A program made the position numbers and the translations under genes. A stretch of 64,000 nucleotides of DNA from Aspidapion aeneum. Taxonomy: Eukaryota; Arthropoda; Insecta; Coleoptera; Brentidae. Positions 2,650 to 58,920 of the stretch are shown piece by piece. Under the pieces are notes generated by a model. The model was not told where the DNA came from. It saw nothing but the letters and a program-made list of their open reading frames with translations, and searched no databases. The DNA is taken from contig CAUYVT010000104.1 in the NCBI GenBank assembly GCA_963576565.1, positions 496,001 to 560,000 of the forward strand, in the 5' to 3' direction. Numbering within the stretch: the first letter of the stretch is position 1; the number at the start of each line of letters is the position of its first letter.

Positions 2650-2659
2650 GTGATACGGA

Positions 2660-4400: not shown

Positions 4401-4448
4401 TAAATAGCAAAAAGCGTTATATTAAATTTTTTAAAGGATTTAATTATC

Positions 4449-8896: not shown

Positions 8897-9262
8897 CAAA
8901 CGTTGTCACTGTTTATAAAATATTTAAATTTAGTTAAATAAAGATAATACGTTGTTATCGCCTTTATATAAGATGTAGATCATACGCACGTTATCACCTT
9001 AATAAAACCGGCAACAGTGCCTGAGGTGGCAGGAAATACCACATATCCAAAGGTTGTATATCGGCCTGAGGTCCGAACGTATTCCACGTATTTATCAAAT
9101 ATTTGAAAAAAAAATCTTTACTCCTCTTTTGAAATTCTGGTAAAGGAAGTTCTCCTCATCTCATATATGTACCTAGATATGGGGTAACACCACCAGAAAT
9201 AGGTGAGGTCAGGTCGTCATATCCTTAACGCTGAGGTGACAACGGGGGGTGCATCAAACGTA

Positions 9263-9306
<44 letters not shown>

Positions 9307-14414: not shown

Positions 14415-14509
14415 TTTCGAATTTTCACTTTTTATCAAATTTGTTAGAAAGGTCTGGCTTTTTTAGAAGCTGACAAAAAATCGAATTGCGGAGATTCGCG
14501 CGCCTGCAA

Positions 14510-31705: not shown

Positions 31706-32553
31706 AGTGGTATGATGTGCGAGCATTTCGTGGTGTTACCTGTGGATCGGCCACCATCTGGTAAAAGCAAAAATATTATTCCCTTTAAGAAAAACAAATA
31801 AGGCCGAAAGTATTAGAGAAAATGAAAACCTAGAATGCATCGAAGACTATCAAAAATACAACTTTAGAAGTCTAGAAATCGAAAGTGCTCAAAGATTGTA
31901 TCAGAATCGATTAGATGAAAAATTGATAAACACAAATCACTCATTTAAAGTGACAGATACAAACATAATAAAAAGCTTGAAGGAAGTAAGCAACGAAGCT
32001 GCTGGATACCAAGATAATAGAAATAACAGGAAGATGTGGTGGACGGAGAAAGTACAGGAAATGGTCAAAAAGAAAAAACGCACATACTTGAAAGAGACGA
32101 GACTCGAATATTTGGCAGCCTCTCCGAGAAGAGGCATAGAAGTACATGGAGAGGAAGTAATCATCGAAAAATGAATGATAAAGAATAGTATTAACAAGTT
32201 TAAATCCGGAAAAGCTAGCGGACCTGGGGGAATATTTGCTGAAATGCTCAAATATGGATAAAAGAAACTACTCGAAAATCTCACATATATTATCAATCAA
32301 TGCACAAACGGACACCCAGTACCTAATGATTGGAAAATTGCATTCATATCCTCAATACATAAAAAAGGAAACAAGCTGGATTGCAACAGTTACAGAGGAA
32401 TTTCAGTAACCTGTACTCTAAGTAGTTTGTACGGTAGGATTCTTAGAGATCTTATAGAGAATGATTTTCATGCACAAGAAGAAGAAGAAGAGCAAAGTGG
32501 GTATGATACCGTTCCAGGAGAAAAATCATAGACAGTGTTAAAGCAAACTCATA

Positions 32554-36420: not shown

Positions 36421-37206
36421 GACAAATTCGATTCAGCTAATTTTTTACGCAAATGACAACAAGGCAAAATATTTAAATATCAGTCAATAGGTGGCACTAC
36501 ATATTAGAGTCCTAGGGACACCTATGCGGTTTCTAAATTGTGGGCCTTACTAAAATTTTAGGGATGACAAAAAACAAGACATTTTGAGTTTGACACTGAC
36601 GTTAATTTTTGCCCAAAAACACAAGTGGGCGGCTAGTTTTCCAATAGCAACAGAAAAAATAAAATAATAGTAAATAACAAAGCCTATTTTTTTTGTCAAA
36701 AACCAGGGGATGACATTTTATCTTATAAATAAAAATAGAAAGAAAGTGTTTATTTACTGTGATAGAAAATACTGATAATCCCGAAGAAGACTTAGCCCCA
36801 ATAGGATGGAACACATAATGTTCCTATGAGCCTGCCTCCAAATACATCTAGAGCAAAATATATTTAAAGACCTTCCGATATCATTGATCCAGAAGATGAA
36901 AACGAAAATCTCCTGATCCACAGATGCTGCACAGGATAAGAAGTAACGTTTTCGGCAATCATTGTAAATTAAATATAATAAATGAGTTGTTTTTATTTTA
37001 GTAGTATACTTTTGTTTCCACAACCTCGTAGAAAAAATATTGTACCTACATACTTAACGAATGTGTTTCGTGCGTCTTCCGCACTGGTTAGGTAAATTAC
37101 TATTTCCTGCGACCACATATAAAAATGTTGGATTTTACACGATTTGCATCCTCAGAAAACAATAAATTTCATCCGTTTGCAGAAATTTTTTCGCACATGT
37201 GTGACA
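36421..37206. other. Intergenic, nothing recognised
   Basis: The minus-strand frames at 36,602 and 36,754 are low-complexity and overlap each other. TTTTTTCGCACATGTGTGACAA at 37,186-37,206 has a near-copy in direct orientation at 58,967-58,987. Confidence 0.4.
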
Positions 37207-37670
37207 AGTACAGGGTGTCCCAAAGTGGGCACTTTTAGGTGGTTTAAGGTACTTCTAGGGGAGACAGAGAAAAACTGACCACGCATTGCGAGGTTCAAAT
37301 TTCAAGAAAAGACTTATAGTGAAAACCGCATTTTGAAATATTCCCTCGTCTTGGAGTTACGAAGGTTTATGGAAAGTCTGCATTTTGGAAGGGGGTCTAT
37401 AACTTCGTTATTAGTGAAAATTTTGATTTAGGATAAGTTGCAATTTAAAAGACTTTGTTACGAGGAATTCACCCGCTAAATTAAATTTTAACTGTCAGTT
37501 TTAGTTTTTGAGATATGACATAAAGTTGCATTTTTTCTTATGGAATGGCCTATATTTTAATTAATTTTCGAATTCGTCATTGAATTCTTTTCAAAATGAT
37601 GTATCATAAGTCATAGTTTGATTAAGCAATTTCGGAGATAATTAAAGTTTTATATTTTGGTCTAGTGTGC
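37207..37670 (+). repeat. Outer inverted repeat, left arm
   Basis: 464 bp beginning AGTACAGGGTGTCCCAAAGTGGGC and ending CTAGTGTGC. The reverse complement is at 58,458-58,920. By eye the two differ at roughly one base in ten, clearly more than the inner palindrome arms. They are best read as terminal inverted repeats of an older fold-back element that was later split. Confidence 0.85.
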
Positions 37671-37946
37671 GTTGAATGATGTCATGCGCCATTGACATGA
37701 AAGCCTGGCGGTCAAATCCTATTCCATACTCCTATAGGTTTGTTGTGTTATACTATGCAAATCAAGTTGGCCTTGCGTCTTGGCGTTTTGTCATTGTTTT
37801 CAATTGTTTAAACAATTTGACATTACGCTTTGATATGAAATTATTTTGCACAAAAGCGTTTTTAGTTTAATTTTGAAATGTGTATCAAAATGATGCAAAG
37901 TATGACATGTTAAAATGTTACTGGGAAAGTAATGATAATCGACAGG
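37671..37946 (+). other. Left half of the loop of the older element, ending in the target duplication
   Basis: 276 bp with no counterpart on the other side of the palindrome. Ends in GACAGG (37,941-37,946). The 64-residue frame at 37,676 is not recognisable. Confidence 0.6.
37941..37946 (+). other. 6-bp target site duplication, left (GACAGG)
   Basis: GACAGG abuts the first base of the palindrome (37,947). The identical GACAGG abuts its last base on the other side (58,160-58,165). Perfect, in direct orientation, and outside the homologous arms. Confidence 0.85.
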
Positions 37947-38787
37947 AGTAGATTAGTAAGGGGGCTTCTGGCGCATTTTAACATGTAACTCTACATAAGA
38001 AAAAAAGCTGGTAAGTTTTTGGATGTATCACAGAATATTGCTTAACAGACAGTAATTTTTATGTGACACATCTTGTGCTACTTAATATAACCTTTTAAAG
38101 GTTCTGCATTGACAACTTACCTGTTTATTTTTTACTTGACAATTCGTATAAATATTGAGCTGTACTGCTACTCACTATCCTACGCTTGCGGAATTTAAAC
38201 CCAAACAGTCGGCTACTTGATAAGCGGTTATAATACTTTAACAAATGTCAATTTAGTCATACCATGCCCGCCATACAGATTTTGTTTTTTTTTTGTACAA
38301 ATTATTTTATTTTTACTTTGTTTCATTTTAGTTTTTAGTACTATATACTTCTGCTATATTAGCTAGTTAAAGATTAGAATTTTGTTTTACTTTACAATCT
38401 ATGTTAGGTATAGCTTGTTTACTTTCTAAATTTTAGTACTGGATACTTGGGACAGGTTAATAGTAATTACACCAGATTATGTTTTATTTATCTCTTATAA
38501 AAAAGTATTACATAGGAATACAGTTATTCATAATTCAATACGGTATAGATGGAGACTCACAAGTTCTATTTAACATTATAGTAGGTATATTATAATAACA
38601 TTATAGGTACTACTTATAAGTATTATTAAAAAAGTTTATATATTTATTTTTACAATAAATTATATTAGGTCTTACCCTATACATATGCTAACTTAAATTA
38701 CATACTTAGAGTTTGCTGCTAAAAATATTTAAACAAACACTATATAAACAAATACCACATTATTAAGATTACATTAAAACTAAGTTT

Positions 38788-41700
38788 TCACCTAATACTA
38801 TAGTGCCCCCACGGCAACGTTTTATAAGACTCTTTTGAAATAGACCGTTTGTCATCCAGGGGAATTAGTCCGATTTTTATCTGTTTTACAGAGTAGAGTC
38901 TATGTTTTTCGGATCTTATAAGATTTTGCGTAATCATTGTTTCTTGATAGTTATTTAGGCAGTCGACATAGTCATCGAATGACATTTCTGATTTTACAAC
39001 ATTGTGCTTTACGCCTTTTGCTTTCTTAGTCACTTTTGCAGCTTCACTTTTTATACCAGCTACTTTTGTAGCGTACATTTTAGCTCAATAAAATGTGTCA
39101 TTATTTGTCCATTGTTTTCATCTTTCATCATCCCTAAAACCTTTTTATTTACTCTAGGAATGTTATATTGGTTATCTTCAGCATAGTCAGATGTATCAAA
39201 GGTGTGACAGCAGTCGCGCCGTATGGACTCGTAAATGTCATGATTTTGGACGTTATAAACTAAACTATCAGTATCTGTATATGCCACAGTACAATCCTTA
39301 CCAAAAGCCGGTACCATGTAGTTATAGTGAAAATCATATATAGTTGTTTTGGCAATGTCCAAAATACACATTCCCACATATATCGGTTTATTGAAATATA
39401 CTTTTGTTTTTTCAAGTTCAACGGCAACCAAATTTTCATTAAATATGGTTATACTTTTAAACTCTGGTCGAGAGATTAGAGCTTCGGCTCCGAATCGTCC
39501 GTCCCAGTTCTTAATTAATTTTATGTTACAGTGATTTCTAATATTTTCCATTGTTTTACCAAACACGGCGTTATTCATTAATTTAAAAAGGTTTTTCTCA
39601 AACTCATTTTTAGCATCCTGCCTTAATTGAGTATTTAGGTCAATATAGGGTTTCAGCCATGCGGACTGCTTCAAGCATAAAATTTTATGAATTTTTTCAA
39701 GTTTTATACCAAGTTTTAATGCTTGCTTTAAATTTCTATAATGAATTACATAGTCACTTTTATTATACAGTGTAGCCATAAGTTTTTTATTTTTAGTGTC
39801 TTTAGTGCCAGGTGGGCACTGATGCTCAGGACATAGAGGCAAGTCAGAGAAATAGTCGTGTAATTCCACAGGAATGCACAAGTCGACTTCTAGAATATAT
39901 CCAATATTCGAGTCATCTTCAATTTTATTAACATCAAAATTGAGCATTTCATTACTTTCTAACCAATAAAAATTTCCATAAGGCAGAAACTGACTCATGC
40001 TAAACCCATACTGATTGTTTATATCAAAATACATTAGAAAAGATGTTTCTTTAGTTAAGTCGTAGTTTGGCATATATTTATTATTTGCCTCCACATATCT
40101 TTTAGAACATTGACTTAACCCTCCTCTAATACCGCGTTCTATAAATGTGACCATATTGTAGTATGTCAAGAGTTCTAATTTTTGTTGCGTGCGGTACAGC
40201 ATGCAATCCCAGGTATAACCGGGAAGGGTAAAATAGTTCGCATGGTCCAAACCATACGTTTTATGACAACTTTCCCTAAATTGCTGGAATACCTGCATTA
40301 AGAGGATTATGTCAACTTTCATGTAGAGTTCCATATAATCTTGTATGGTTTTACAACCAAAGGTTTTCCACACGTTCTGTGCATATTTATAATCAACTAA
40401 CGAAATTTCTTTATTTTCTAGAGAATTGAAGAAATGGAGTTTTTTCGGTAAAGATGTTTCTCTTAGTTTTTCCCAACTATTCATGTAGTCATAACAAAAG
40501 ATACCCTTTAGATAAATAAGTTTGTATTGTTCGTCAGACAAATTAGGAAATTCATTTCTAATCAGCGGATAGTCCTCAAGATTTGAAACTAGCTTATCCA
40601 AGCTACTGGCCATAAAGCGGAACGAGTCAATAAATCTAAACTCAATTAAATTTTAATTAATTTTTTTCGTAAATGCAATATACTTTTCTTTGTTCACGGG
40701 TAACAGGCTTATTGATCCATCTAAATTAGCGATATGGTCAATAATTAAATGTCCATCATAAGAGCTAAGGTTGTGAAATACCACAGGGACAGTATGGCTA
40801 TCCTGAAAATTCAGATTACAGCTTTCATGCGCTGGTCCACGATACTCTGAAGTTAGGTGACAGTGTTTGCGTATTTTCTTTTCACCGCTTAAAAACATAT
40901 GTTCACAAATATGACATTTTGCAGCTTTATTATAGTCAAGTTTTTGTCTTTTACTTAAAGGGTCTATGGGCAAGTCACAGAGAAATACAGTTTCCAAGTT
41001 TTCAGCAAACTCCAGTAATTGTTTGCTAAACCATTCCATACAGTCAGACCCCGTGTATGATCGATAAAATGATAGGGAATCATCATAAGCACATTTTACG
41101 TAGTACCCTTTTTACGTAGTACCCTTAACTTAACAAGGCACATGTCGTTGATAATTTTGAGTTTTTTTTCCGCTGTTTTCGTCAACAGGAATTAGCAGGC
41201 ATTCAATGTCTCCATAAACAATGAACGGCGTAAATTGTTTATTTTTAAAGTTTTTAAACTCAACAATTTTTCTTTCTTCACTTGGTAGTTTGGGCACTAC
41301 AATGCTACCAATAATTTTGCAGTCTTTAATATGCTGATTAAGTCCAGCCTTAGAATAGAAGTAATGTAGGCATCTATCACATACCCACTTTGAGACTTTC
41401 TTTTTACTTAATTGCCTACTTACTAACCTCGAAAGATTTTTTATCCATACAAAGTGGAAAGTTGGTGGGACCAGGTCAGATATGTCTTCATTCTTCAAAT
41501 AATAATTATTTTGTAGCATCAACAAATTAACATGTTTTTCAAGATTTTCGCTAGTAATGTACGTAGGTAATACTTTAAAACTGCTTTCATTGACTTTTTG
41601 GAGACGATACACGTTTATGGAAACATTATTTTGCTTTTCGAACCGGACAACCTGGTTTAAGTTCATCGGAAACTTAATACCTTTTAGGTTTAAAACATCT

Positions 41701-42302
41701 TCAGGATGTGGATATGATGAAGTTCTATTTGAGCTTTGTTCAACAGGAAACAATGCTGATACGACCGCCCAGCCAAAGCACAATTTATCAATATTTTGTA
41801 CATTCACACAAGCTTTTTTATCTAAAATAATCTTAGGTAGTTCCAAATGACGCCCTGCTCGCTGGGCGTTATATTTATTAAAATTGATCATAAGATTATT
41901 TATTTTTATTAGGGACCAACCAGATTGGTTCTGCTCAAATTCTTCTATTTTTGTCAAAAGTAGATTCTTAACGTTCGTGTCAAACCAGTTCTTTAAATTG
42001 GTGTGATTATCAATCACGGCATTAGGAGTACTAAAATGTTTTGTTTCATTAATTATTTGATTTTGCTTTGGAATTTGAAAATCTCCACTTAAAATTGTGT
42101 TTACTTTCACCATTTCTTGTTTTTTTAAGACGTTTTTAATTCTATGGGCTTTTTCATAAACCGTCCGGGACTTTTTTAGGGCAATGCTTATTCTTCGACT
42201 AGCGTTGGCACAGTCCTTCAAGATTTTTGATATTTTTGTAGCTTGATTAACACTTTCTAATTGGCATTTTATTTCATGGACTAATTTACTTGCAAAACTC
42301 AT
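38788..42302 (-). pseudogene. polB: Family-B DNA polymerase, left-arm copy
   Basis: Start at the ATG at 42,302 (MSFASKLVHE); the frame upstream of it has only a non-ATG codon. Order: N-terminal helical part; a segment with CFGWAVVSALFP and later EKHVNLLML, a Cys/His pair reminiscent of thiol-protease folds (inference); C2HC zinc finger CDRC...H...C near 41,320-41,385; exonuclease I YGDIE; HNH/endonuclease VII-like CHIC...HCHLT...AHESCNLNF; exonuclease II NLSSYDGH; exonuclease III YMKVD; polymerase motif A FDINNQYG, motif B KLMNNAVFG, motif C YTDTDS. C-terminus LPWGHY. Breaks: a stop plus a ~17-bp tandem duplication near 41,115, a stop near 40,650 shared with the right copy, a 7-bp deletion near 39,080, and loss of 75 codons (225 bp) near 42,144. 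Catalytic motifs are intact. Confidence 0.92.
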
Positions 42303-42560
42303 CTTCAGATCGATTTGATGTAATAACACTACAGAGACTTCGGATTTTTCCAACTAGCAATTTAGTTAACAAATGCAAGTTTTTAAATGCTTATGGTAAT
42401 TAACGATTAACAGATTTTTTAATAAACACTACACTTTGTTTAAAATTCACTAAACGCAAACTAGCAGAGGAAGAATCGTTCTTTAACTCGCACGTTTAGC
42501 TATAGACTGACAGAAAAACGACTTGCAGGAGCTATTGTAAATGGGATGCCCCCTTTTTAG
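42303..42560 (-). promoter_or_regulatory. Presumed 5' region of the left polB gene
   Basis: Conserved with 53,380-53,635 in the other arm. AT-rich, with GTTGGAAAAATCCGAAGTCTCTGTAGTG just before the start. No definite TATA box or initiator can be asserted. Placement is by position only. Confidence 0.25.
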
Positions 42561-44045
42561 GCACAGTGTTGCCAATGTTTTTACATGGTTTATAAAAGCT
42601 ATTTTGTTAGAACCCGGTCAAAGTATTTACAGGACATTTTAATGAATAATAAAATAATTTCCCGCTTTCAGTATTTTCAATACGGATTATTAGAACCAGA
42701 AATTGAAACTCTTCAGTCACCTTTTTTAATATAATATAAATGTTGAGCAGCTATTTATTACAACCTTAAATTTAATTACATTAATTTTATTAAAATTAAA
42801 TTAAATATTCTTACAAATTAGTTTTTTTTGTTTTGTAATGTTCTATTAATGCCAGCTGAAGAATTATTTTATAACTAGCTCTGTGGTGAAAAGAATCCTA
42901 AATAAGGAAGCATGGGGTAGCCAAAGAGGAAAGAAAGGGAAAGAAAGACGGAAAAGGCAGAAATAAGCTTGATTTAATAAATTAACCAAATAGCTAACAG
43001 ACAGAGAACTAGAAGTTAAACGAATTAAAAACTGAAATCAAAATGAGATAAGCATACTATAAAAAAAAATGCTTTAAAGCGCTCTAGTTATAGATGTTTA
43101 TTATCGTAAAACTAAGTATTCAAAATAAAATCAGACCTTATGCCTAGTTTGCCAACCATGTTTTTCCTTAACCCGAATGGCGAACAGACACGTGAAGACT
43201 AGCAATTTTACCCTTTTTTTTTCAGGTTTTAACAAGTTAAGAAAAGCAGATCTTTTCCTTGGCTTTACCTACTTTATGTAATATTTAACAAGTTTTTAGA
43301 GTTTTGATCACAAGTGATTATAAAAAGAATTACTAAGATTAAATATTAAATATCTACGTATTACATTTTTATAGATTGCATGTACTTATATTTTTTATTT
43401 GTTGAGTTTTTGTACATAGGTATAACAGAAAACTATCACAAAGCCTATTTATTTAAATTATCTCATGTTATAACCCTTGCGGGTGTTTACAGCGACCTGT
43501 AGGACTGTACATATTTTTCTTCGGATCGCAGACTTATAACTACTTATATTCTATATTTTCTGGTTCTAATCACACAGAAAAATTATATCCGTATGTGCTT
43601 GTGAGCTTAAAGAAATCAAGTTATGCGTACATTTTCTACTAGTATTTATCCCAAGTAGGCATCAGGTAAGTGCGCGACTAACGTCATTTTTATACCTAGG
43701 TTAACCCAATTCTTACAGGACAGACAGCATGTGCCGCCATTTCACCTTTGTGTACACACAAGTTCCCACTTTTCATTAAAATAACTACATTTAATTCACA
43801 TTTTTATTTTTCTTCAATATTACATATTATGTACTCGTTTTAGTCAAAGTCAATATTTAATTTTAATAATGTTTTACCATTGCTTCTTCTTATGTTTCTT
43901 TTTTAGCGATTACAAATAGTACTAATTGTTCATAGTATTGTAAGTTTTATATTAATCCATCCACACGTGCCCATGTCAAATTCAGATAAGCCGAATCTTG
44001 GGGAATCACCAGAAGCTAATATTAATATTTAGTATTAAGATTTCA

Positions 44046-44075
44046 AAAACAAAATACAAATTTGTATTTTGTTTT
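44046..44075. repeat. 30-bp perfect palindrome (left arm)
   Basis: AAAACAAAATACAAA directly followed by its complement, no loop. Preserved at 51,852-51,881 in the right arm. Confidence 0.95.
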
Positions 44076-44834
44076 AGAGATTTAGTAATAAAAGCAAGTA
44101 TTTCATAAATTAAATAGAACCGGTCTCTATTTTTCTCTCTGTTCATAATTTTTGCATGTAGTACCATTTTTCGAATATGCTCCGCAACGCTCCTTATACA
44201 CACACTCTATTAAGTGGATTAATTAGATACCACCTGTGCGCGAATAGGCACAAAAAGACAGATACCTGACACCTTTTTATTACATCAGCTTAGTTCATTA
44301 CCAGTTTAAAACTTATGTACCAAAAACGCTATTTATCACTTACTACTTGCCTTAGAAGCCGTAGGTGTTTCCCTTGAAACTAACCTGACCTTACAGGTCG
44401 TTTCGATCCAATTTTTTAACAATACATATTTATATGTAGGTGTTTAAGTTTTTTCTTAAACTAGGCATCAGAATGCGTACGCACTTGGGCACTGCGTGAA
44501 TAATGATCCACATTTGGATCCAAGACAATTTTTTACCTTGACGCACAGCCTCCCCTAATTAAAAATAAGCTAATGGGGTTGTACTCTATAAGCAATAACA
44601 TTGATAATTTTTTACCAATATTTCAAGTTTTTAGCCTAGAACACATATTTTTAAACACTTAACGGAGTTTAAACCATAAACTAGTTTTGCTATTTAGTAC
44701 ACTTATAGAAGTTACGGTTTAAATATGTATTTTTTTAAAAGACATTTTTCACAGAATAGATTAGCTGGAAGACGTTTTGAGCTAATCAAACGTTGTCAAG
44801 CCCTTTAGACAGGATAATAAGCACACTCACCAAA

Positions 44835-44955
44835 GATATAGGTCATAGGTCGAAGGACATAGGACATTAAACAAATGCCAGTGGACATAAACCAAATGCC
44901 AGTGGACATACCCCGAATGTCATAGGGCATAGTTCGAGTGTCATAGGCCATTTAA
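44835..44955 (+). repeat. Short minisatellite of GACATA...AATGCCAGTG units
   Basis: Repeats such as AAATGCCAGTGGACATAAACC and AAATGCCAGTGGACATACCCC with flanking CATAGGNCATAG motifs, ~21-24 bp period. The mirror copy is at ~50,980-51,090. Confidence 0.8.
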
Positions 44956-46052
44956 AACGCGTGCAATTCTCTGCACGGGGGGAGCCTTAGCTAGCCCAAA
45001 TCATAGCTAATTGGTAACACGACATTGCTGATTTGACGCATATATTCGCTGATCGAAGGGGGGCTTTAGATAGCTACCGAGAGAGGTATACGGAAGTAAA
45101 GGTATTTAAATCCAGAATTATTCGTTTTTTTATTTAAAGAGAAACAATTAAAAAATTTGTACATATCAAGTTTTTAACATTTAGAATATACGAGTAAATC
45201 ATTTTTAATTTTCGACCATTTTAACTCGATCTTTTAGTTTTTAGTAAACATCTTATATTTTCTTCTTTTCCTTGCGTGCGTTAATAGGACGTGTATTAAC
45301 GAATAAATTTAGCTTTTCAAGGGGATTACGTGTTACAGGTCAAAATTTCAGGTAACACACGTTTTTATTTCACTTTATCTAAAAGTTTCTTAACATTTAG
45401 AATATACGTGTAAACCCTGTATAATTGTTCTAGGTATTTTTTTCTTGCATAAATAGGATACCTATTAATGAATATATTTAGATTTTCAAGGGGAAAAACA
45501 CACACTTTTATTTTAATTCACTTAATCTAAAAGGCTTTATAAAGAAAATAATTTCAGAATGCTATAACACTAAATTCAAATTTTTATTAACTCCTTATTA
45601 AATTTTAGAGCAACCAGTTCTAGAGTAGTTGATCCTTACTATGTTGTGCTGTATATTAAATGCAATTTGTAGGTCTATATGATACGTTAAAATCTTAATT
45701 CCCGATAGTTTATGTCCATACCTAACTATATTTAATTTTCCACGGACAAATATGCATTGTGAACGTCTGTATGTACGTAATATTTTCTAGATAACAACAC
45801 AAAGTATCAAACTTTGTGATTGCACCTTAAAAGTTATCGGACTTCTAACGGTTTATAATTTCTTCCAACCGCTCATCCTTTTGTGTGAATGACAAACGCT
45901 GCCGTATGCTTGGGATCTGCCGGGGGCTGCTGTTTAGAACCGCTTAACAACTATACAAATGTTTAATTATTTTAAAAATTTAATCTATTTTAAGGGATAA
46001 CAAAGGAGATAAGTAGGGATAATTTACAGATTTGCTAAGATTCTAAACACTT

Positions 46053-46328
46053 TTGGACCAAAGTTTTCGCTTCATTCCGAGTCGATTTTGCAAAAACAAT
46101 CTTTTAAGAAGCAGGATGGACTTTACAAAATTGCCTGTTTTAAAGCCAAACAAGACAGTCTCTAAACAAAAAAAAAATGCAAAGGAAATTACTTTTACAG
46201 GAGAGTACAAATGCATTGCCAGAGCAAGACAAAAATCACCTAGACTGCGGGACAGAAGAAGACCAAAACGCCAAAACTCTATGTATTACTTTATTAAGAA
46301 GATAGAAAATGCCACAGTATTGGCATAA
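46053..46328 (+). other. Small open frame overlapping a minisatellite unit
   Basis: 91 codons, basic in the second half (KCIARARQKSPRLRDRRRP). Its 3' half lies in the first ~280-bp repeat unit. Its mirror in the right arm is disturbed. I doubt it is a gene; no family recognised. Confidence 0.2.
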
Positions 46329-46930
46329 CAGAAATGGTCACAGTATTGACCAGACACAAAGGGTGTACAAATGCCAGGCATTAATATAAAACCCTGTTTC
46401 ACCAATATAAGCTTTTGTTGAATATTTAAGGTTGAAAGTATTAAATATTTAAAAATTACAAAGTGTACTTTTCCAGGAGAGTACCAACGCATTGTCAGAG
46501 CAAGACAAAAATCACCCAGACTGCGGGAGAGAAGAAGACAAGAACGCCAAAATCGTATGTATTACTTTATTAAGAAGATAGGAAAGGCCACAGTATTGGC
46601 ATAACAGAAATGGTCACTGTATTGACCAGACAGAAAGGGTTCACGAATGCCAGGCATTAATATAAAACACTGTTTTATCATTATAAGCGTTTTCGATTAT
46701 TTAAGGATGAAATTATTAAATAATTAAAAATTGCAAAGTGAATACGCAGCACTTTTTCAAGAAAGTACCAACGCATTGCCAGAGCAATGCAATAAATGCT
46801 AAAATTGTATGATTTAGTTCGTTAAGAAGATAGGAAATGCCACAGTATTGACATAATAAAAATGGCCACAGTATTGGCCAAACAGAAAGGGCTTACGAAT
46901 GCCCGGTATTAATTTAAAAAAGCCCGTTTT
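46200..46930 (+). repeat. Three tandem ~280-bp units (left arm)
   Basis: Anchors GGAGAGTAC at 46,200 and 46,476 and AGAAAGTACC at 46,760 (periods 276 and 284). Each unit includes GCATTGCCAGAGCAA, TTTAGTTC/TACTTTATTAAGAAGATAG, GCCACAGTATTG and AATGCCAGGCATTAATATAAAA. Mirrored at ~49,015-49,740. Inside each unit TGCCAGGCATTA is a small inverted repeat. Confidence 0.85.
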
Positions 46931-47426
46931 ACCACTACCACTAAACAATTTTGGTACCTAATATTTTACTATTACATGTTCAAAGTTCTTTTACCTCACT
47001 TTATCATCAAAAAAGTTTTAAACACAATAGGAAGAATTTCCTAAATATTTAACTAATAAATTGAATTTAAATAAGAAATTTTATTAGGATTATCTAATAA
47101 ACTTTCCAGTGACAGCTATTTTGAAATAAATTAACCTTAAAATTGGACTATCAATAAAAAAATTTTATTTATGTAGACACAAATATATAGGTTTAGGTGC
47201 TAAATGGAATCAGCACGTTACATTAAAATATTTTATATACTTTAATGCTACAAATATTAGGTGTACATTAATTTAATCAAATTTAAAATCTAATATTTTA
47301 TGTCATTCCATCTTAAAGAAGCAGGACCTAAATTATTTTTAACACTACGAATTGTTTTGTTTCAAATATCATTGTCAACACATAGAGAAACGGAATAGGA
47401 AAATTAGAGATTAAGCGGTAAGCCGG

Positions 47427-47693
47427 ATGCCTGACACAAAGGCCTATGAGGCGGCCTACTTGTTTAATCTTAAGGCAATCCTTCAGTATAAAATGCATAC
47501 AAAATTGAAGTCAACACAGCATAAATGCTGTGAATATACTAAAAACCAAGCAGCTAACAGCTATTTTAATACATGTTTAACGTATTTATTTCCTAATAGT
47601 TCAAAAAACCAACTAATTAAAAAAGTTTCTAAAAAAAACCAGTGCCTGGTTAAAACCATGTGTTTATTAAAGTGCTTGTCACTTTCTACTTAA
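47427..47693 (+). CDS. Small conserved frame next to the palindrome centre (hypothetical)
   Basis: 88 codons beginning MPDTKAYEAAYLFNLK, lysine- and cysteine-rich (STQHKCCEYTKNQ). No family recognised. The mirrored frame (48,239-48,460, minus) has lost the ATG (ATGCC became AGGCC) but remains open with only a couple of residue changes, no more than the general arm divergence. It points toward the central spacer, opposite to polB. It may be chance: short length, no domain, no clear codon signature. Confidence 0.25.
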   Translation: MPDTKAYEAAYLFNLKAILQYKMHTKLKSTQHKCCEYTKNQAANSYFNTCLTYLFPNSSKNQLIKKVSKKNQCLVKTMCLLKCLSLST

Positions 47694-47740
47694 TTACATA
47701 CTGCAGTTTCATGAGGTCATTTATATTTGATATTGAGCTT

Positions 47741-48179
47741 CTTTCTTATCCCTTTAGTTAGCACCGTCTTAGTTGCGGTAGGCTGGCGAACTCAACAGAG
47801 CTGCTTGCTAACGGTATAACTCGGGCATAACTCGACTCGGTGCATACAGATGCGAAGACATACACAGAAAAGCACTTGCTTTAAAAATAATGTGACTTAA
47901 AGTAAATTTATAGAAAATATGGTTACGTTTTAGAAGTATAAATAAATGTGTATGTTACTAAAAAATAAGCAACTGTTTAAATAATTAGCATGAAATATAT
48001 TAAATCCATAATCAACTCTATCCCTAAATCATAATTTTTAATTGATGACTCTTTTTGGATTGTTTATTATAAGTAAAAATCGAGCTAAAGTTGGTGTTGT
48101 TTTAAAAAGTTTGTTAATCTTTGAAATGTAGCGTATGTTTCAGTAATACACGTAAAAATAATCGTGCTAATCTCAACTT
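47741..48179. other. 439-bp unique spacer at the palindrome centre
   Basis: Homology between the arms stops abruptly after GATATTGAGCTT (47,740) and resumes at AAGCTCAATAT (48,180). The spacer is not self-complementary and not repeated elsewhere in the window. The first ~150 bp are GC-richer (GGTAGGCTGGCGAACTC). No open frame of note. Confidence 0.85.
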
Positions 48180-48238
48180 AAGCTCAATATGAAATATAAA
48201 TGACCTCATGAAACTGCAGTATGTAATTAAGTAGAAAG

Positions 48239-48460
48239 TTACAAGCACTTTAATAAACACATGGTTTTAACCAGGTACTGGTTTTTTTTAGAAACTTTTT
48301 TAATTAGTTGGTTTTTTGAACTATTAGGAAATAAATACGTTAAACATGTATTAAAATAGCTGTTAGCTGCTTGGTTTTTAGTATATTCACAGCATTTATG
48401 CTGTGTTGACTTCAATTTTGTATACATTTTATACTGAAGGATTGCCTTAAGATTAAACAA
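48239..48460 (-). pseudogene. Mirror of the small frame at 47,427
   Basis: 73 open codons equivalent to residues 13-86 of the left frame, with Tyr for His and Tyr for Cys at two places. The ATG codon is lost upstream. Recorded for completeness. Confidence 0.25.
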
Positions 48461-51400
48461 GTAGGCCGCCTCATAGGCCTTTGTGTCAGGCCTCCGGCTT
48501 ACCGCTTAATCTCAAATTTTCCTATTCCGTTTCTCTATGTGTTGACAATGATATTTGAAACAAAACAATTCGTAGTGTTAAAAATAATTTAGGTCCTGCT
48601 TCTTTAAGATGGAATGACATAAAATATTAGATTTTAAATTTGATTAAATTAATGTACACCTAATATTTGTAGCATTAAAGTATATAAAATATTTGAATGT
48701 AACGTGCTGATTCCATTTAGCACCTAAACCTATATATTTGTGTCTACATGAATAATTTTTTTTTATTGATAGTCCAATTTTAAGGTTAATTTATTTCAAA
48801 ATAGCTGTCACTGGAAAGTTTATTAGATAATCCTAATAAAATTTCTTATTTAAATTCAATTTATTAGTTAAATATTTAGGAAATTCTTCATATTGTGTTT
48901 AAAACTTTTTTGATGATAAAGTGAGGTAAAAGAACTTTGAACATGTAATAGTAAAATATTAGGTTCCAAAATTGTTTAGTGGTAGTGGTAAAACGGGCTT
49001 TTTTAAATTAATACCGGGCATTCGTAAGCCCTTTCTGTTTGGCCAATACTGTGGCCATTTTTATTATGTCAATTCTGTGGCATTTCCTATCTTCTTAACG
49101 AACTAAATCATACAATTTTAGCATTTATTGCATTGCTCTGGCAATGCGTTGGTACTTTCTTGAAAAAGTACTGCGTATTCACTTTGCAATTTTTAATTAT
49201 TTAATAATTTCATCCTTAAATAATCGAAAACGCTTATAATGATAAAACAGTGTTTTATATTAATGCCTGGCATTCGTGAACCCTTTCTGTCTGGTCAATA
49301 CAGTGACCATTTCTGTTATGCCAATACTGTGGCCTTTCCTATCTTCTTAATAAAGTAATACATACGATTTTGGCGTCCTTGTCTTCTTCTCTCCCGCAGT
49401 CTAGGTGATTTTTGTCTTGCTCTGACAATGCGTTGGTACTCTCCTGGAAAAGTACTGCGTATTCACTTTGTAATTTTTAAATATTTATTACTTTCAACCT
49501 TAAATATTCAAAAAAAGCTTATATTGGTAAAACAGGGTTTTATATTAATGCCTGGCATTTGTACACCCTTTCTGTCTGGTCAATACTGTGACCATTTCTG
49601 TTATGCCAATACTGTGGCCTTTTCTATCTTCTTAATAAAGTAATACATACAGTTTTGGCGTTTTTGTCTTCTTCTGTCCCGCAGTCTAGGTGATTTTTGT
49701 CTTGCTCTGGCAATGCATTTGTACTCTCCTGTAAAAGTAATTTCCTTTGCATTTTTTTTTGTTAAGAGACCGTCTTGTTTGGCTTTAAAACAGGCAATTT
49801 TGTAAAGTCAATCCTGCTTCTTAAAAGATTGTTTTTGCAAAATCGACTCGGAATGAAGCGAAAACTTTGGTCCAAAAGTGTTTAGAATCTTAGCAAATCT
49901 GTAAATTATCCCTACTAATCTTCTTTGTTATCCCTTAAAATAGATTAAATTTTTAAAATAATTAAACATTTGTATAGTTGTTAAGCGGTTCTAAACAGCA
50001 GCCCCCGGCAGATCCCAAGCATACTGCAGCGTTTGTCATTCACACAAAAGGATGAGCGGTTGGAAGAAATTACAAACCGTTAGAAGTCCGATAACTTTTA
50101 AGGTGCAATCACAAAGTTTGATACTTTGTGTTGTTATCTAGAAAATATTACGTACATACAGACGTTCACAATGCATATTTGTCCGTGGAAAATTAAATAT
50201 AGTTAGGTATGGACATAAACTATCGGGAATTAAGATTTTAACGTATCATATAGACCTACAAATTGCATTTAATACACAGCACAACATAGTAAGGATCAAC
50301 TACTCTAGATCTGGTTTCTCTAAAATTTAGTAAGGAGTTAATAAAAATTTGAATTTAGTGTTATAGCATTCTGAAATTATTTTCTTTATAAAGCCTTTTA
50401 GATTAAGTGAATTAAAATAAAAGTGTGTGTTTTTCCCCTTGAAAATCTAAATATATTCAATAATAGGTATCCTATTTATGCAAGAAAAAAATACCTAGAA
50501 CAATTATACAGGGTTTACACGTATATTCTAAATGTTAAGAAAGTTTTAGATAAAGTGAAATAAAAATGTGTGTTACCTGAAATTTTGACCTGTAACACGT
50601 AATCCCCTTGAAAAGCTAAATTTATTCGTTAATACACGTCCTATTAACGCACGCAAGGAAAAGAAGAAAATATAAGATGTTTACTAAAAACTAAAAGATT
50701 GAGTTAAAATGGTCGAAAATTAAAAATGATTTACTCGTATATTCTAAATGTTAAAAACTTGATATGTACAAATTTTTTAATTGTTTCTCTTTAAATAAAA
50801 AAACGAATAATTCTGGATTTAAATACCTTTACTTCCGTATACCTCTCTCGGTAGCTATCTAAAGCCCCCCTTCGATCAGCGAATATGTGCGTCAAATCAG
50901 CAATGTCGTGTTACCAATTAGCTATTATTTGGGCTAGCTAAGGCTCCCCCCGTGCAGAGAATTGCACGCGTTTTAAATGGCCTATGACAATCGAACTATG
51001 CCCTATGACATTCGGGGTATGTCCACTGGCATTTGGTTTATGTCCACTGGCATTTGTTTAATGTCCTATGTCCTTCGACCTATGACCTATATCTTTGGTG
51101 AGTGTGCTTATTACCCTGTCTAAAGGGCTTGACAACGTTTGATTAGCTCAAAACGTCTTCCAGCTAATCTATTCTGTGAAAAATGTCTTTTAAAAAAATA
51201 CATATTTAAACCGTAACTTCTATAAGTGTACTAAATAGCAAAACTAGTTTATGGTTTAAACTCCGTTAAGTGCTTAAAAATATGTGTTCTAGGCTAAAAA
51301 CTTGAAATATTGATAAAAAATTATCAATGTTATTGCTTATAGAGTACAACCCCATTAACTTATTTTTAATGAGGGGAGGCTGTGCGTCAAGGAAAAAATT

Positions 51401-53379
51401 GTCTTGGATCCAAATGTGGATCATTATTCACGCAATGCCCCAGTGCGTACGCATTCTGATACCTAGTTTAAGAAAAAACTTAAACACCTACATATAAATA
51501 TGTATTGTTAAAAAATTGGATCGAAACGACCTGTAAGGTCAGGTTAGTTTCAAGGGAAACACCTACGGCTTCTAAGGCAAGTAGTAAGTGATAAATAGCG
51601 TTTTTAGTACATAAGTTTGAAACTGGTAATGAACTAAGCTGATGTACTAAAAAGGTGTCAGGTATCTGTCTTTTTGTGCCTATTCGCGCACAGGTGGTAT
51701 CTTAATAATCCACTTAATAGAGTGTGTGTATAAGGAGCGTTGCGGAGCATCTTCGAAAAATGGTACTACATGCAAAAATTATGAACAGAGAGAAAAATAG
51801 AGACCGGTTCTATTTAATTTATGAAATACTTGCTTTTATTACTAAATCTCTAAAACAAAATACAAATTTGTATTTTGTTTTTGAAATCTTAATACTAAAT
51901 ATTAATATTAGCTTCTGGTGATTCCCCAAGATTCGGCTTATCTGAATTTGACATGGGCACGTGTGGATGGATTAATATAAAACTTACAATACTATGAACA
52001 ATTAGTACTATTTGTAATCGCTAAAAAAGAAACATAAGAAGAAGCAATGGTAAAACATTATTAAAATTAAATATTGACTTTGACTAAAACGAGTACATAA
52101 TATGTAATATTGAAGAAAAATAAAAATGTGAATTAAATGTAGTTATTTTAATGAAAAGTGGGAACTTGTGTGTACACAAAGGTAAAATGGCGGCACATGC
52201 TGTCTGTCCTGTAAGAATTGGGTTAACCTAGGTATAAAAATGACCCATTACGTTAGTCGCGCACTTACCTGATGCCTACTTGGGATAAATACTAATAGAA
52301 AATGTACGCATAACTTGATTTCTTTAAGCTCACAAGCACATACGGATACAAATTTTCTGTGTGATTAGAACTAGAAAATATAGAATATAAGTAGTTAGAA
52401 GTCTGCGATCCGAAGAAAAATATGTACAGTCCTACAGGTCGCTGTGAACACCCGCAAGGGTTATAACATGAGATAATTTAAATAAATAGGCTTTGTGATA
52501 GTTTTCTGTTATACCTATGTACAAAAACTCAACAAATAAAAAATATAAGTACATGCAATCTATAAAAATGTAATACGTAGATATTTAATATTTAATCTTA
52601 GTAATTCTTTTTATAATCACTTGTGATCAAAACTCTAAAAACTTTATGTTAAATATTACATAAAGTAGGTAAAGCCAAGGAAAACATCTGCTTTTCTTAA
52701 CTTGTTAAAACCTGAAAAAAAAGGGTAAAATTGCTAGTCTTCACGTGTCTGTTCGCCATTCGGGTTAAGGAAAAACATGGTTGGCAAACTAGGCATAAGG
52801 TCTGATTTTATTTTGAATACTTCGTTTTACGATAAGAAACATCTATAACTAGAGCGCTTTAAAGCATTTCTTTTTATAGTATGCTTATCTCATTTTGATT
52901 TCAGTTTTTAATTCGTTTAACTTCTAGTTCTCAGTCTGTTAGCTATTTGGTTAATTTATTAAATCAAGCTTATTTCTGCCTTTTCCGTCTTTCTTTCCCT
53001 TTCTTTCCTCTTTGGCTACCCTATGCTTCCTTATTTAGGATTCTTTTCACCACAGAGCTAGTTATAAAATAATTCTTCAGCTGGCATTAATAGAACATTA
53101 CAAAACAAAAAAAAAACTAATTTGTAAGAATATTTAATTTAATTTTAATAAAATTAATGTAATTAAATTTAAGGTTGTAATAAATAGCTGCTCAACATTT
53201 ATATTATATTAAAAAAGGTGACTGAAGAGTTTCAACTTCTGGTTCTAATAATCCGTATTGAAAATACTGAAAGCGAGAAATTATTTAATTATTCATTAAA
53301 ATGTCCTGTAAATACTTTGACCGGGTTCTAACAAAATAGCTTTTATAAACCATGTAAAAACATTGGCAACACTGTGCCT
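48461..53379. other. Right-arm non-coding interior
   Basis: The 4.9-kb mirror of 42,561-47,426. The frame 49,428-49,643 translates minisatellite. No recognisable gene. Confidence 0.6.
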
Positions 53380-53635
53380 AAAAAAGGGGCATCCCATTTA
53401 CAATAGCTCCTGCAAGTCGTTTTTCTGTCAGTCTATAGCTAAACGTACGAGTTAAAGAACGATTCTTCCTCTGCTAGTTTGCGTTTAGGGAATTTTAAAC
53501 AAAGTGTAGTGTTTATTAAAAAATCTGTTAATCGTTAATTACCATAAGCATTTAAAAACTTGCATTTGTTAACTAAATTGCTAGTTGGAAAAATCCGAAG
53601 TCTCTGTAGTGTTATTACATCAAATCGATCTGAAG

Positions 53636-56600
53636 ATGAGTTTTGCAAGTAAATTAGTCCATGAAATAAAATGCCAATTAGAAAGTGTTAATCAAGCTAC
53701 AAAAATATCAAAAATCTTGAAGGACTGTGCCAACGCTAGTCAAAGAATAAGCATTGCCCTAAAAAAGTCCCGGACGGTTTATGAAAAAGCCCATCTAACT
53801 GCCTGTCTTGGAGAAGTGAAAGGCTTTAAGCATCACTTGAAGACAAACATAAAGCAGGGAGGTGGTAATGTCATCAACAAGAACACCGCAAAACAACGGG
53901 TTAGATGGGAAGATGTGAAGTCAGCCTTTGACAGTAGGGTAAGAAGTGGTGTAATTACAAATTTAAAAAACACCGATGCCCATCAATTTCTGATGGATAG
54001 CTTCAGCTTATTTAAACGTAGAATTAAAAACGTTTTAAAAAAACAAGAAATGGTGAAAGTAAACACAATTTTAAGTGGAGATTTTCAAATTCCAAAGCAA
54101 AATCAAATAATTAATGAAACAAAACATTTTAGTACTCCTAATGCCGTGATTGATAATCACACCAATTTAAAGAACTGGTTTGACACGAACGTTAAGAATC
54201 TACTTTTGACAAAAATAGAAGAATTTGAGCAGAACCAATCTGGTTGGTCCCTAATAAAAATAAATAATCTTATGATCAATTTTAATAAATATAACGCACA
54301 GCGAGCAGGGCGTCATTTGGAACTACCTAAGATTATTTTAGATAAAAAAGCTTGTGTGAATGTACAAAATATTGATAAATTGTGCTTTGGCTGGGCGGTC
54401 GTATCAGCATTGTTTCCTGTTGAACAAAGCTCAAATAGAACTTCATCATATCCACATTATGAAGATAAAAGGTATTAAGTTTCCGATGAACTTAAACCAG
54501 GTTGTCCGGTTCGAAAAGCAAAATAATGTTTCCATAAACGTGTATCGTCTCCAAAAAGTCAATGAAAGCAGTTTTAAGGTATTACCTACGTACATTACTA
54601 GCGAAAATCTTGAAAAACATGTTAATTTGTTGATGCTACAAAATAATTATTATTTAAAGAATGAAGACATATCTGACCTGGTCCCACCAACTTACCACTT
54701 TGTATGTATAAAAAATCTTTCGAGGTTAGTAAGTAGGCAATTAAATAAAAAGAAAGTCTCAAAGTGGGTATGTGATAGATGCCTACATTACTTCTATTCT
54801 AAGGCTGGACTTAATCAGCATATTAAAGACTGCAAAATTATTGGTAGCATTGTAGTGCCCAAACTAACAAGTGAAGAAAGAAAAATTGTTGAGTTTAAAA
54901 ACTTTAAAAATAAACAATTTACGCCGTTCATTGTTTATGGAGACATTGAATGACTGCTAATTCCTGTTGACGAAAACAGCGGAAAAAAAACTCAAAATTA
55001 TCAACGACATGTGCCTTGTTCAGTGGGGTACTACGTAAAATGTGCTTATGATGATTCCCTATCATTTTATCGATCATACACGGGGTCTGACTGTATGGAA
55101 TGGTTTAGCAAACAATTACTGGAGTTTGCTGAAAACTTGGAAACTGTATTACTCTGTGACTTGCCCATAGACCCTTTAAGTAAAAGACAAAAACTTGACT
55201 ATAATAAAGCTGCAAAATGTCATATTTGTGAACATATGTTTTTAAGCGGTGAAAAGAAAATACGCAACCACTGTCACCTAACTTCAGAGTATCGTGGACC
55301 AGCGCATGAAAGCTGTAATCTGAATTTTCAGGATAGCCATACTGTCCCTGTGGTATTTCACAACCTTAGCTCTTATGATGGACATTTAATTATTGAGCAT
55401 ATCGCCAATTTAGATGGATCAATAAGCCTGTTACCCGTGAACAAAGAAAAGTATATTGCATTTACGAAAAAAATTAATTAAAATTTAATTGAGTTTAGAT
55501 TTATTGACTCGTTCCGCTTTATGGCCAGTAGCTTGGATAAGCTAGTTTCAAATCTTGAGGACTATCCGCTGATTAGAAATGAATTTCCTAATTTGTCTGA
55601 CGAACAATACAAACTTATTTATCAAAAGGGTATCTTTTGTTATGACTACATGAATAGTTGGGAAAAACTAAGAGAAACATCTTTACCGAAAAAACTCAAT
55701 TTCTTCAATTCTCTAGAAAATAAAGAAATTTCGTTAAATGATTATAAATATGCACAGAACGTGTGGAAAACCTTTGGTTGTAAAACCATACAAGATTAAA
55801 TGGAACTCTACATGAAAGTTGACATAATCCTCTTAATGCAGGTATTCCAGCAATTTAGGGAAAGTTGTCATAAAACGTATGGTTTGGACCCTGCGAACTA
55901 TTTTACCCTTCCCGGTTATACCTGGGATTGCATGCTGTACCGCACGCAACAAAAATTAGAACTCTTGACAGACTACAATATGGTCACATTTATAGAACGC
56001 GGTATTAGAGGAGGGTTAAGTCAATGTTCTAAAAGATATGTGGAGGCAAATAATAAATATATGCCAAACTACGACTTAACTAAAGAAACATCTTTTCTAA
56101 TGTATTTTGATATAAACAATCAGTATGGGTTTAGCATGAGTCAGTTTCTGCCTTATGGAAATTTTTATTGGTTAGAAAGTAATGAAATGCTCAATTTTGA
56201 TGTTAATAAAATTGAAGATGACTCGAATATTGGATATATTCTAGAAGTCGACTTGTGCATTCCTGTGGAATTACACGACTATTTCTCTGACTTGCCTCTA
56301 TGTCCTGTGCATCAGTGCCCACCTGGCACTAAAGACACTAAAATTAAAAAACTTATGGCTACACTGTATAATAAAAGTGACTATGTAATTCATTATAGAA
56401 ATTTAAAGCAAGCATTAAAACTTGGTATAAAACTTGAAAAAATTCATAAAATTTTATGCTTTAAGCAGTCCGCATGGCTGAAACCCTATATTGACCTAAA
56501 TACTCAATTAAGGCAGGATGCTAAAAATGAGTTTGAGAAAAACCTTTTTAAATTAATGAATAACGCCGTGTTTGGTAAAACAATGGAAAATATTAGAAAT

Positions 56601-57368
56601 CACTGTAACATAAAATTAATTAAGAACTGGGACGGACGATTCGGAGCCGAAGCTCTAATCTCTCGACCAGAGTTTAAAAGTATAACCATATTTAATGAAA
56701 ATTTGGTTGCCGTTGAACTTGAAAAAACAAAAGTATATTTCAATAAACCGATATATGTGGGAATGTGTATTTCGGACATTGCCAAAACAACTATATATGA
56801 TTTTCACTATAACTTCATGGCTCCGGCTTTTGGTAAGGATTGTACTGTGGCATATACAGATACTGATAGTTTAGTTTATAACGTCCAAAATCATGACATT
56901 TACGAGTCCATACGGCGCGACTGCTGTCACACCTTTGATACATCTGACTATGCTGAAGATAACCAATATAACATTCCTAGAGTAAATAAAAAGGTTTTAG
57001 GGATGATGAAAGATGAAAACAATGGACAAATAATGACACATTTTATTGGCCTCAGAGCTAAAATGTACGCTACAAAAGTAGCTGGTATAAAAAGTGAAGC
57101 TGCAAAAGTGACTAAGAAAGCTAAAGGCGTAAAGCACAATGTTGTAAAATCAGAAATATCATTCGATGACTATGTCGACTGCCTAAATAACTATCAAGAA
57201 ACAATGATTACGCAAAATCTTATAAGATCCGAAAAACATAGACTCTACTCTGTAAAACAGATAAAAATCGGAGTCCCCTGGATGACAAACGGTCTATTTC
57301 AAAAGAGTCTTATGAAACGTTGCCGTGGGGGCACTATAGTATTAAGTGAAAACTTAGTTTTAATGTAA
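53636..57368 (+). pseudogene. polB: Family-B DNA polymerase, right-arm copy
   Basis: Start at ATG 53,636. Same domain order as the left copy, and it keeps a 75-residue N-terminal segment (with RVRWEDVKSAFDSRV and VITNLKNTDAHQFL) that the left copy has lost. Breaks: an 11-bp deletion near 54,465 shifting the frame; a TGC-to-TGA stop just after the exonuclease I motif (54,951); the shared TAA at 55,479; a TAT-to-TAA stop at 55,797 just before the exonuclease III motif; and a 4-bp loss near 57,270 that alters the C-terminal ~30 residues. The region 55,800-57,270 is open through motifs A, B and C and over the spot where the left copy has its 7-bp deletion. Across ~510 residues of the polymerase part I count 11 substitutions plus the stop relative to the left arm. 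The HNH-like box reads RNHCHLT here versus RKHCHLT on the left. Confidence 0.92.
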
Positions 57369-58159
57369 TCTTAATAATGTGGTATTTGTTTATATAGTGT
57401 TTGTTTAAATATTTTTAGCAGCAAACTCTAAGTATGTAATTTAAGTTAGCATATGTATAGGGTAAGACCTAATATAATTTATTGTAAAAATAAATATATA
57501 AACTTTTTTAATAATACTTATAAGTAGTACCTATAATGTTATTATAATATACCTACAATAATGTTAAATAGAACTTGTGAGTCTCCATCTATACCGTATT
57601 GAATTATGCATAACTGTATTCCTATGTAATACTTTTTTATAAGAGATAAATAAACCCAAGTATCCAGTACTAAAAATTACAAAGTAAACAAGCTATACCT
57701 AACATAGATTGTAAAGTAAAACAAAATTCTAATCTTTAACTAGCTAATATAGCAGAAGTATATAGTACTAAAAACTAAAATGAAACAAAGTAAAAATTCA
57801 ATAATTTGTACAAAAAAAAAACAAAATCTGTATGGCGGGCATGGTATGACTAAATTGACATTTGTTAAAGTATTATAACCGCTTATCAAGTAGCCGACTG
57901 TTTCGGTTTAAATTCCGCAAGCGTAGGATAGTGAGTAGCACTACAGCTCAATATTTATACGAATTGTCAAGTAAAAAATAAACAGGTAAGTTGTCAATTC
58001 AGAACCTTTAAAAGGTTATATTAAGTAGCACAAGATGTGTCACATAAAAATTACTGTCTGTTAAGCAATATTCTGTGATACATCCAAAAACTTACCAGCT
58101 TTTTTTCTTATGTAGAGTTACATGTTAAAATGCGCCAGAAGCCCCCTTACTAATCTACT

Positions 58160-58165
58160 GACAGG
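58160..58165 (+). other. 6-bp target site duplication, right (GACAGG)
   Basis: Immediately follows the last base of the palindrome (58,159) and is identical to 37,941-37,946. Confidence 0.85.
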
Positions 58166-58457: not shown

Positions 58458-58920
58458 GCACACTAGAAATAAGTGAAAAAGTTGAATATCTCCTAAACCG
58501 CTCAATAAAACTATGATATATAATACATTAATTTGAAAAGAATTCAATGACAAATTCGAAAATTATTAAAGAATAGGCCATTCCATAAGAAAAAATGCAA
58601 CTTTATGCCATATCTCAAAAACTAAATGTGACAGTTAAAATTTAATTTAGCGGGTGAATTCCTCGTGACAAAGTCTATAAAATTGCAATTTACTCTAAAT
58701 AAAAATTTCGACTAATAACAAAGTTATAGACCCTCTTCCAAAATGCAGACTTTTCAAAAAGCCCCCGTAGCTCAAAGACGAGACAATATTTCAAAATGCG
58801 GTTTTTACTATAAGTCTTCTCTTGAAATTTGAGCCTCGCAATGCGTGGTCAGTTTTTCTCTGCCTCCCCTAGAAGTACCTTAAACCCCCTAAAAGTGCCC
58901 AATTTGGGACAACCTGTACT
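58458..58920 (-). repeat. Outer inverted repeat, right arm
   Basis: 463 bp, reverse complement of 37,207-37,670, ending CCAATTTGGGACAACCTGTACT. The match stops sharply at both ends. Confidence 0.85.

Follow-up and report, generated by a model that had tools for sequence, protein, structure and literature searches.

Palindromic, probably Polinton-derived elements with a DNA polymerase gene in each arm in the beetle Aspidapion aeneum

An inverted element in the window

We analyzed a stretch of 64,000 nucleotides from Aspidapion aeneum (Coleoptera; Brentidae; assembly GCA_963576565.1, contig CAUYVT010000104.1, positions 496,001 to 560,000, forward strand), here called the window. It holds an element of 20,213 bp, at 37947-58159, built of two long inverted arms, each with a broken gene for a family-B DNA polymerase (PolB) that reads toward the outer end. 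GACAGG stands outside both ends, and the termini are AGTAGATTAGTAAGGGGG...CCCCCTTACTAATCTACT. The features of the locus are as follows.

37941..37946, no strand: left copy of the 6-bp target-site duplication, GACAGG, read directly
37947..47740, plus strand: left arm, ending at an internal-deletion junction (self-alignment; comparison with the center of copy L030)
38788..42353, minus strand: PolB pseudogene of the left arm, in frames 38788-39084, 39060-40652, 40653-41111, and 41130-42353, with 225 bp absent near 42143
42354..47740, no strand: inner part of the left arm, assessed through the matching region of copies L011 (open reading frames [ORFs]) and L081 (family 2)
46190..46797, no strand: two adjacent repeat units of about 330 bp in the left arm (self-comparison), mirrored at 49123-49739
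47741..58159, minus strand: right arm, with 47741-48179, first reported as a spacer, as its inner end (self-alignment; comparison with copy L030)
49123..49739, no strand: two adjacent repeat units of about 330 bp in the right arm (self-comparison)
53585..57368, plus strand: PolB pseudogene of the right arm, in frames 53585-54478, 54360-54953, 54954-55481, 55482-55799, and 55800-57368
58160..58165, no strand: right copy of the 6-bp target-site duplication, GACAGG, read directly

Of 9,731 ungapped positions aligned between the arms, 123 carry substitutions (98.7% identity); the alignment also has 14 gaps, the biggest of which is the 225 bp absent from the left arm. An earlier note on this DNA had described reverse-complement arms of about 10 kb between two copies of GACAGG, with AG...CT ends and one family-B polymerase per arm, and our reading agrees with it on each of these points. 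The note had also placed a spacer of 439 bp between the arms. This segment proved instead to be the inner end of the right arm when it was compared with the center of L030, a copy elsewhere in the genome. Against that center, the window matches the right arm from 47739 onward, joining it about 46 bp inside the inner end, and the left arm breaks off about 490 bp before its own inner end. From these two placements, the window copy has lost about 1.1 kb at the center, comprising the spacer and about 490 bp from the inner part of the left arm.

A 470-bp repeat occurs in inverted copies (88.5%) at 37202-37670 and 58458-58924, about 280 to 300 bp beyond the element ends. The target site of the window element thus lay between inverted copies of another repeat.

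Two families of palindromes in the genome

Searching the genome (1.286 Gb in 149 contigs) for the 18-bp terminus gave 36 forward and 27 reverse exact matches, and its reversed control gave 0. These matches form 26 forward/reverse end-pairs, window included, which we call family 1; 5 single ends, 4 extra tandem left ends, and 2 extra ends of a composite copy (L023/24) were left out of the pairs. An exact 6-bp duplication flanks 23 of the 26 pairs, all 23 six-mers are distinct, and a match would arise by chance at about 0.0005 per pair. By both measures, the family-1 ends are beyond chance. Inspection explains two more pairs: in L023/24 the match, AATATG, sits at the outer end beyond two small palindromes, and in L019/20 AATACT is seen once an extra ACT before the repeat is skipped. 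Since the duplications flank the whole palindrome, it integrated as a single unit, as had been proposed for the window. The duplicated sites favor N-A-Y-R-T-N, a symmetrical pattern whose positions were chosen after inspection; such symmetry is expected of a retroviral-type integrase. A 13-bp sequence, ACATGTTAAAATG, common to the left flank of the window element and its terminus, was dropped as a candidate feature; it does not recur in the 60 bp flanking each of the remaining 25 pairs.

We found inverted arms in all 10 of the other family-1 copies that were read 10 kb inward from each end, 7 of them with an unread center of 1.1 to 8.0 kb. One of the 10, L017/18, has a nested insert in one arm. 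Apart from nested inserts, the stretches read in the 10 copies contain no non-inverted interior. None of these 10 copies has a single polB and short terminal inverted repeats (TIRs), the form that the earlier note named as the one speaking against it. In 15 further pairs, we compared the outer 600 bp; all 15 are inverted and 96 to 100% identical, and 5 of them have PolB at both ends on opposite strands (among the best 37 of 3,696 candidates scored).

The usual form is about 21.5 kb long, with two arms of about 10.45 kb enclosing about 560 bp. It is best seen in L030, whose center is uninterrupted and whose arms run about 650 bp past the 9.8 kb read from the end. About 390 bp of the L030 spacer consists of 43/89-bp tandem repeats, and this spacer was seen in two copies of family 1 and one of family 2. 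The extra length of L029, a 27.7-kb copy, is an insertion inside the spacer, bounded by 222-bp direct repeats in a long terminal repeat (LTR)-type layout. The three centers read thus hold the tandem repeats, the same repeats plus the LTR-type insert, and the family-2 spacer. The insertion itself (L029 705-7050, about 6 kb) carries long ORFs and 222-bp direct terminal repeats.

Palindromic reads from a missed adapter do occur in long-read data, and an assembly artifact of this kind could in principle mimic such a structure. However, the arms differ by their own substitutions and indels, the flanks carry matching 6-mers, and the center is the same sequence in the copies in which it was read. An artifact is therefore hardly credible.

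A second set of ends, AGTAGTTAATATATATAGGTTTTGG, has 40 forward and 52 reverse matches, with none in the control. Sixty of these 92 ends form 30 pairs, family 2, from which the 32 unpaired ends were left out. The arms of copy C8, one of the 30 pairs, are inverted and 99.96% identical over 2,435 bp, with AATATT on both sides; those of copy C3 are inverted and 99.82% identical over 2,745 bp. PolB is uninterrupted in both copies. The C8 PolB is 84.5% identical to that of family 1, with a nonsynonymous divergence (dN) of 0.085 and a synonymous divergence (dS) of 0.60, and family-2 PolB overall is 84 to 85% identical in amino acids. The earlier note had suggested a new lineage of PolB-only elements with giant TIRs; two families with that architecture are present. 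The inner arm and spacer of the C8 copy are mostly 91 to 99% identical to family 1 (L081 compared with L011), and the outer 786 bp of C8 align to family 1 over a short stretch only. Because the inner arm and spacer are so alike while PolB is only 84.5% identical, the inner module was probably exchanged recently between the families. In a palindrome with one arm copied from the other, one exchange event would spread to both, in line with the homogenizing model described below.

At two family-1 loci (G000:C3:87034825-87085764 and G000:C9:37665118-37698603), three forward ends each have a host flank in common. The spacing from one end to the next is about 6.3 kb, with the exception of the last C3 step (22.4 kb). 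These loci look like tandem duplications of flank plus left end. Elsewhere in the window, a reverse transcriptase fragment with a sub-threshold gag-like match marks a degenerate retroelement (11715-12077 and 13872-14438, minus strand), and further reverse transcriptase fragments mark a second retroelement (30803-31726, minus strand). A repeat at 8988-9557 pairs with its own reverse complement (88%) and has related copies near 23390 and 14510.

The polymerase gene and the identity of the arms

PolB is the only gene that we recognized in each arm. Other copies contain an intact homologue of 1259 codons, whose product (1259 amino acids) is of Polinton type. Its modeled N terminus shows terminal-protein-like and OTU-like folds with modest Z scores and resembles the terminal-protein and OTU domains of the TP-vOTU-PolB arrangement. 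The motif YTDTDS is invariant in 15 of 15 aligned sequences, and several homologues carry PF03175. The best-scoring named relatives come from weevils and other beetles. A further relative, P0019, is filed under a Rickettsia endosymbiont of a weevil and is probably a misfiled host contig. Searches of viral contigs and of plasmids returned no relatives, and those of prokaryote genome contigs returned six contigs of metagenome-assembled genomes with PolB 29 to 47% identical. In one of these (L074, 15 kb read of a 24.8-kb contig filed as Verrucomicrobiales), PolB is accompanied by an A32-type ATPase and an rve integrase, and the inverted repeats within the 15 kb are only 30 to 36 nt and imperfect. 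For these reasons, L074 looks like an ordinary Polinton-like genome, and it is probably misbinned.

Apart from PolB, no ORF of the L011 arm exceeds chance length (longest, 97 amino acids; shuffle mean, 91; 95th percentile, 118). Among the other arms looked at, L025 has a frame of 143 amino acids within the 330-bp repeats, and the ORFs of the L017 arm belong to its nested insert.

We then compared arms within and between family-1 copies, excluding L017/L018, with its nested insert, from the divergence, private-change, and PolB-codon alignments. The two arms of a copy diverge by 0 to 0.26% in 8 of 10 aligned copies; mean divergence between copies is 0.80% over arm positions 1-4700 and 1.64% over 4700-8500. 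Among biallelic sites with the minor allele in at least two arms, 214 of 223 have that allele in complete arm pairs only. These alignments show, at the level of sequence, that family-1 arms were made identical before insertion. Arms do drift apart in the two most diverged copies: private changes number 83 in one arm versus 14 in two arms in the window and 42 versus 5 in L025/26.

The two classes of change differ in PolB. With the majority codon taken as the reference state, which gives a rough polarity, the two-arm changes comprise 38 nonsynonymous or nonsense and 24 synonymous (nonsynonymous-to-synonymous ratio per site [pN/pS], 0.38), and the one-arm changes comprise 57 and 13 (pN/pS, 1.06; Fisher P = 0.012). 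From these ratios, family-1 PolB looks to be under purifying selection while the element cycles and free of it after insertion. This bears on whether gene conversion could keep the arms alike once they are in the chromosome, in the manner of sex-chromosome palindromes. Palindrome arms can indeed convert each other, but here they drift apart once inserted (83 versus 14 and 42 versus 5), and it is the one-arm changes that look neutral and the two-arm changes that look selected. We regard conversion after insertion as very improbable.

Integration, replication, and relation to known elements

We asked where an integrase might come from. A Polinton-type integrase query matched all 114 candidates scored, the best 114 of 7,346 first-look candidates, at about 40% identity and mostly in open frames; the 114 are a lower bound of the genome's set. 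The A32-type ATPase model PF04665 gave 71 matches among 120 of 120 candidates scored (best E, 5e-8), and 24 of the 71 sit 2.3 to 3.1 kb from an integrase among those listed. None of these 114 integrases and none of the 71 ATPase matches lies inside any of the 56 end-pairs, some of whose centers are unread, and no integrase among the matches listed is within 44 kb of any pair. Since elements with integrase and ATPase reside in the same genome, they could supply integrase to the palindromes.

One alternative is that the elements are self-sufficient, with a spliced, divergent integrase hidden in the inner arm or, for some copies, within the unread center, and doubled by the giant TIR. The inner arm of about 5.7 kb is mostly 91 to 99% identical between families when PolB is only 86%, in 7 of 10 copies a center of 1.1 to 8.0 kb lies beyond the stretches read, and the inner arm of L025 has an ORF of 143 amino acids. 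However, the L011 arm holds no ORF above chance, the three centers read hold repeats, repeats plus an LTR-type insert, and the family-2 spacer, and the family-1 inner arm is about twice as variable as the PolB region (1.64% versus 0.80%). The identity between families there looks like recent exchange rather than constraint. Self-sufficiency is thus quite improbable.

A second alternative is that the palindromes are dead ends, defective (DI-like) inverted duplications that a full-length Polinton of their own family keeps producing afresh, with the selection on PolB acting in that parent. Protein-primed replication naturally yields fold-back products, Polinton-type integrase and ATPase genes are abundant in the genome, and the 5 family-1 and 32 family-2 unpaired ends could include such a parent. 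The composite L023/24 also speaks for it: a big palindrome, a 975-bp palindrome, and a mini end-palindrome lie inside a single AATATG duplication. The 975-bp palindrome (L068 102-1076, G000:C1, adjoining the L023/L024 copy) has 452-bp arms that are 100% identical, and the composite resembles a snapshot of fold-back copying. Against a parent stand the palindromic form of all 10 copies read 10 kb per end, with no non-inverted interior, nested inserts excepted, in the stretches read; the spacer that two copies of family 1 have in common with one of family 2; the shared architecture of two families with a synonymous divergence of about 0.6; and the lack of an integrase within 44 kb of any of the 56 pairs among the matches listed. 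We consider this explanation unlikely, if less so than self-sufficiency.

The reading that we favor, and hold to be probable, is that these are two related families of Polinton-derived satellites, linear palindromes of about 21.5 kb with a PolB gene per arm, that replicate as palindromes, homogenize their arms in each cycle, and borrow an integrase. The earlier note had offered an inverted dimer captured with a trans-acting integrase. That fits as a description but not as a one-off event, because all 10 other copies read 10 kb inward from each end are palindromic and the spacer recurs.

Protein-primed polymerases displace one strand. We propose that the extrachromosomal form would bear the terminal-protein domain on its 5' ends and replicate by protein-primed strand displacement. 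The displaced palindrome strand would fold on itself into a hairpin, with a stem of about 10.45 kb and a loop formed by the spacer; the paired end of this hairpin would act as an origin once more. Copying round the loop, with one arm templating the other, or repair of the mismatched stem would then leave the arms identical in each cycle. Finally, a Polinton-type DDE integrase, provided in trans by resident ordinary Polintons, would insert the whole palindrome. The sequence data give the outcome of this route, arm identity before insertion, rather than the hairpin intermediate itself.

Several points weigh against the satellite reading. The hairpin step and the trans integrase are what we infer rather than observe. 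The centers of 7 of the 10 deeply read family-1 copies are unread over 1.1 to 8.0 kb, 15 of the 26 family-1 pairs were compared over the outer 600 bp only, and 29 of the 30 family-2 pairs are known by end positions only. Five family-1 ends and 32 of the 92 ends of family 2 are unpaired, C3 has no exact left end and falls outside the 30 pairs, and no target duplication was found at the flanks of L051/52. The 143-residue ORF of L025, which lies in the 330-bp repeats, exceeds the shuffled 95% level of 118. No Pfam polymerase model was found in the PolB protein P0001 itself. Divergence between certain copies is almost as low as that between arms (minima, 0.11% and 0.27%), and in the PolB region L025/26 and the window are nearer to another copy's arm than to the partner arm. 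The polarity of the PolB changes is rough. The A32 ATPase model also scores in 2 of 14 control genomes, and, the integrases being a lower bound, their absence inside the elements is partly checked.

The elements share the 6-bp duplication with Polintons/Mavericks (exact in 23 of 26 pairs), as well as AG...CT termini (AGTAGA... in family 1, AGTAGT... in family 2) and a PolB predicted to be protein primed, with TP-vOTU domains and an endonuclease-VII motif. Unlike Polintons, they contain no recognized integrase or ATPase (integrases, best 114 of 7,346 candidates), and in place of a short TIR and a unique gene-rich interior the copy with an uninterrupted center has a spacer of about 560 bp between arms of about 10.45 kb. 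For capsid and protease genes, the analysis covered long ORFs outside PolB, of which the L011 arm has none above chance. Because three hallmarks are present (duplication, ends, and TP-vOTU-PolB) and three that we tested are absent (integrase, ATPase, and short TIR), we class the elements as Polinton-derived rather than as Polintons. For vertebrate Mavericks, one report gives an (AGT)2 end-motif, matched in full by family 2 and at five of six letters by family 1, and TIRs of 46 to 1,447 bp in intact copies (PMC8097293). The insect elements Sf Maverick 1 and 2 have a PolB ORF of about 3,500 bp annotated with DNA polymerase B2 and endonuclease VII; the portion of that source available to us mentions no palindrome (PMC5803895).

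Other systems resemble these elements in part, and we set out the likenesses after the differences. Galileo/Foldback elements differ in having a P-element-type transposase and a different mechanism, and to our knowledge they have no polymerase. Cytoplasmic linear plasmids are extrachromosomal and not inserted with target duplications. In snap-back defective adenovirus genomes, a protein-primed genome is turned into an inverted duplication of one end, but these are laboratory defective particles and not a heritable integrated family with a selected polymerase. Galileo/Foldback, compared on architecture only, also has very long inverted repeats, by the available text of its source (PMC3573991), and the linear plasmids are described, in the part available, as a polinton-derived replicon with a protein-primed PolB and without a morphogenetic module (PMC11071308).

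We recognized no description of palindromic PolB-only Polintons in the open-licence literature (without subscription papers or Repbase). More tentatively, and at somewhat less than even confidence, we suggest that palindromic replicons form a heritable class of their own. Its members would occur solely as inverted dimers, rewrite one arm per cycle through a full-length hairpin, carry only a protein-primed polymerase, and live as satellites on the integrases of resident Polintons. PolB genes of this type abound in insects, beetles and ants among them, and a large share of these genes may belong to this class. Self-synthesizing transposons are described with their own integrase and a unique gene-rich interior, from which these two families differ. 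If our reading is true, replication would be uncoupled from integration among Polintons, as in viral satellites. Arm divergence would be a natural clock for DNA transposon insertions, the 10-kb hairpin would be a concrete replication intermediate testable in living insects, and many annotated insect "DNA polymerase" genes could be reinterpreted.

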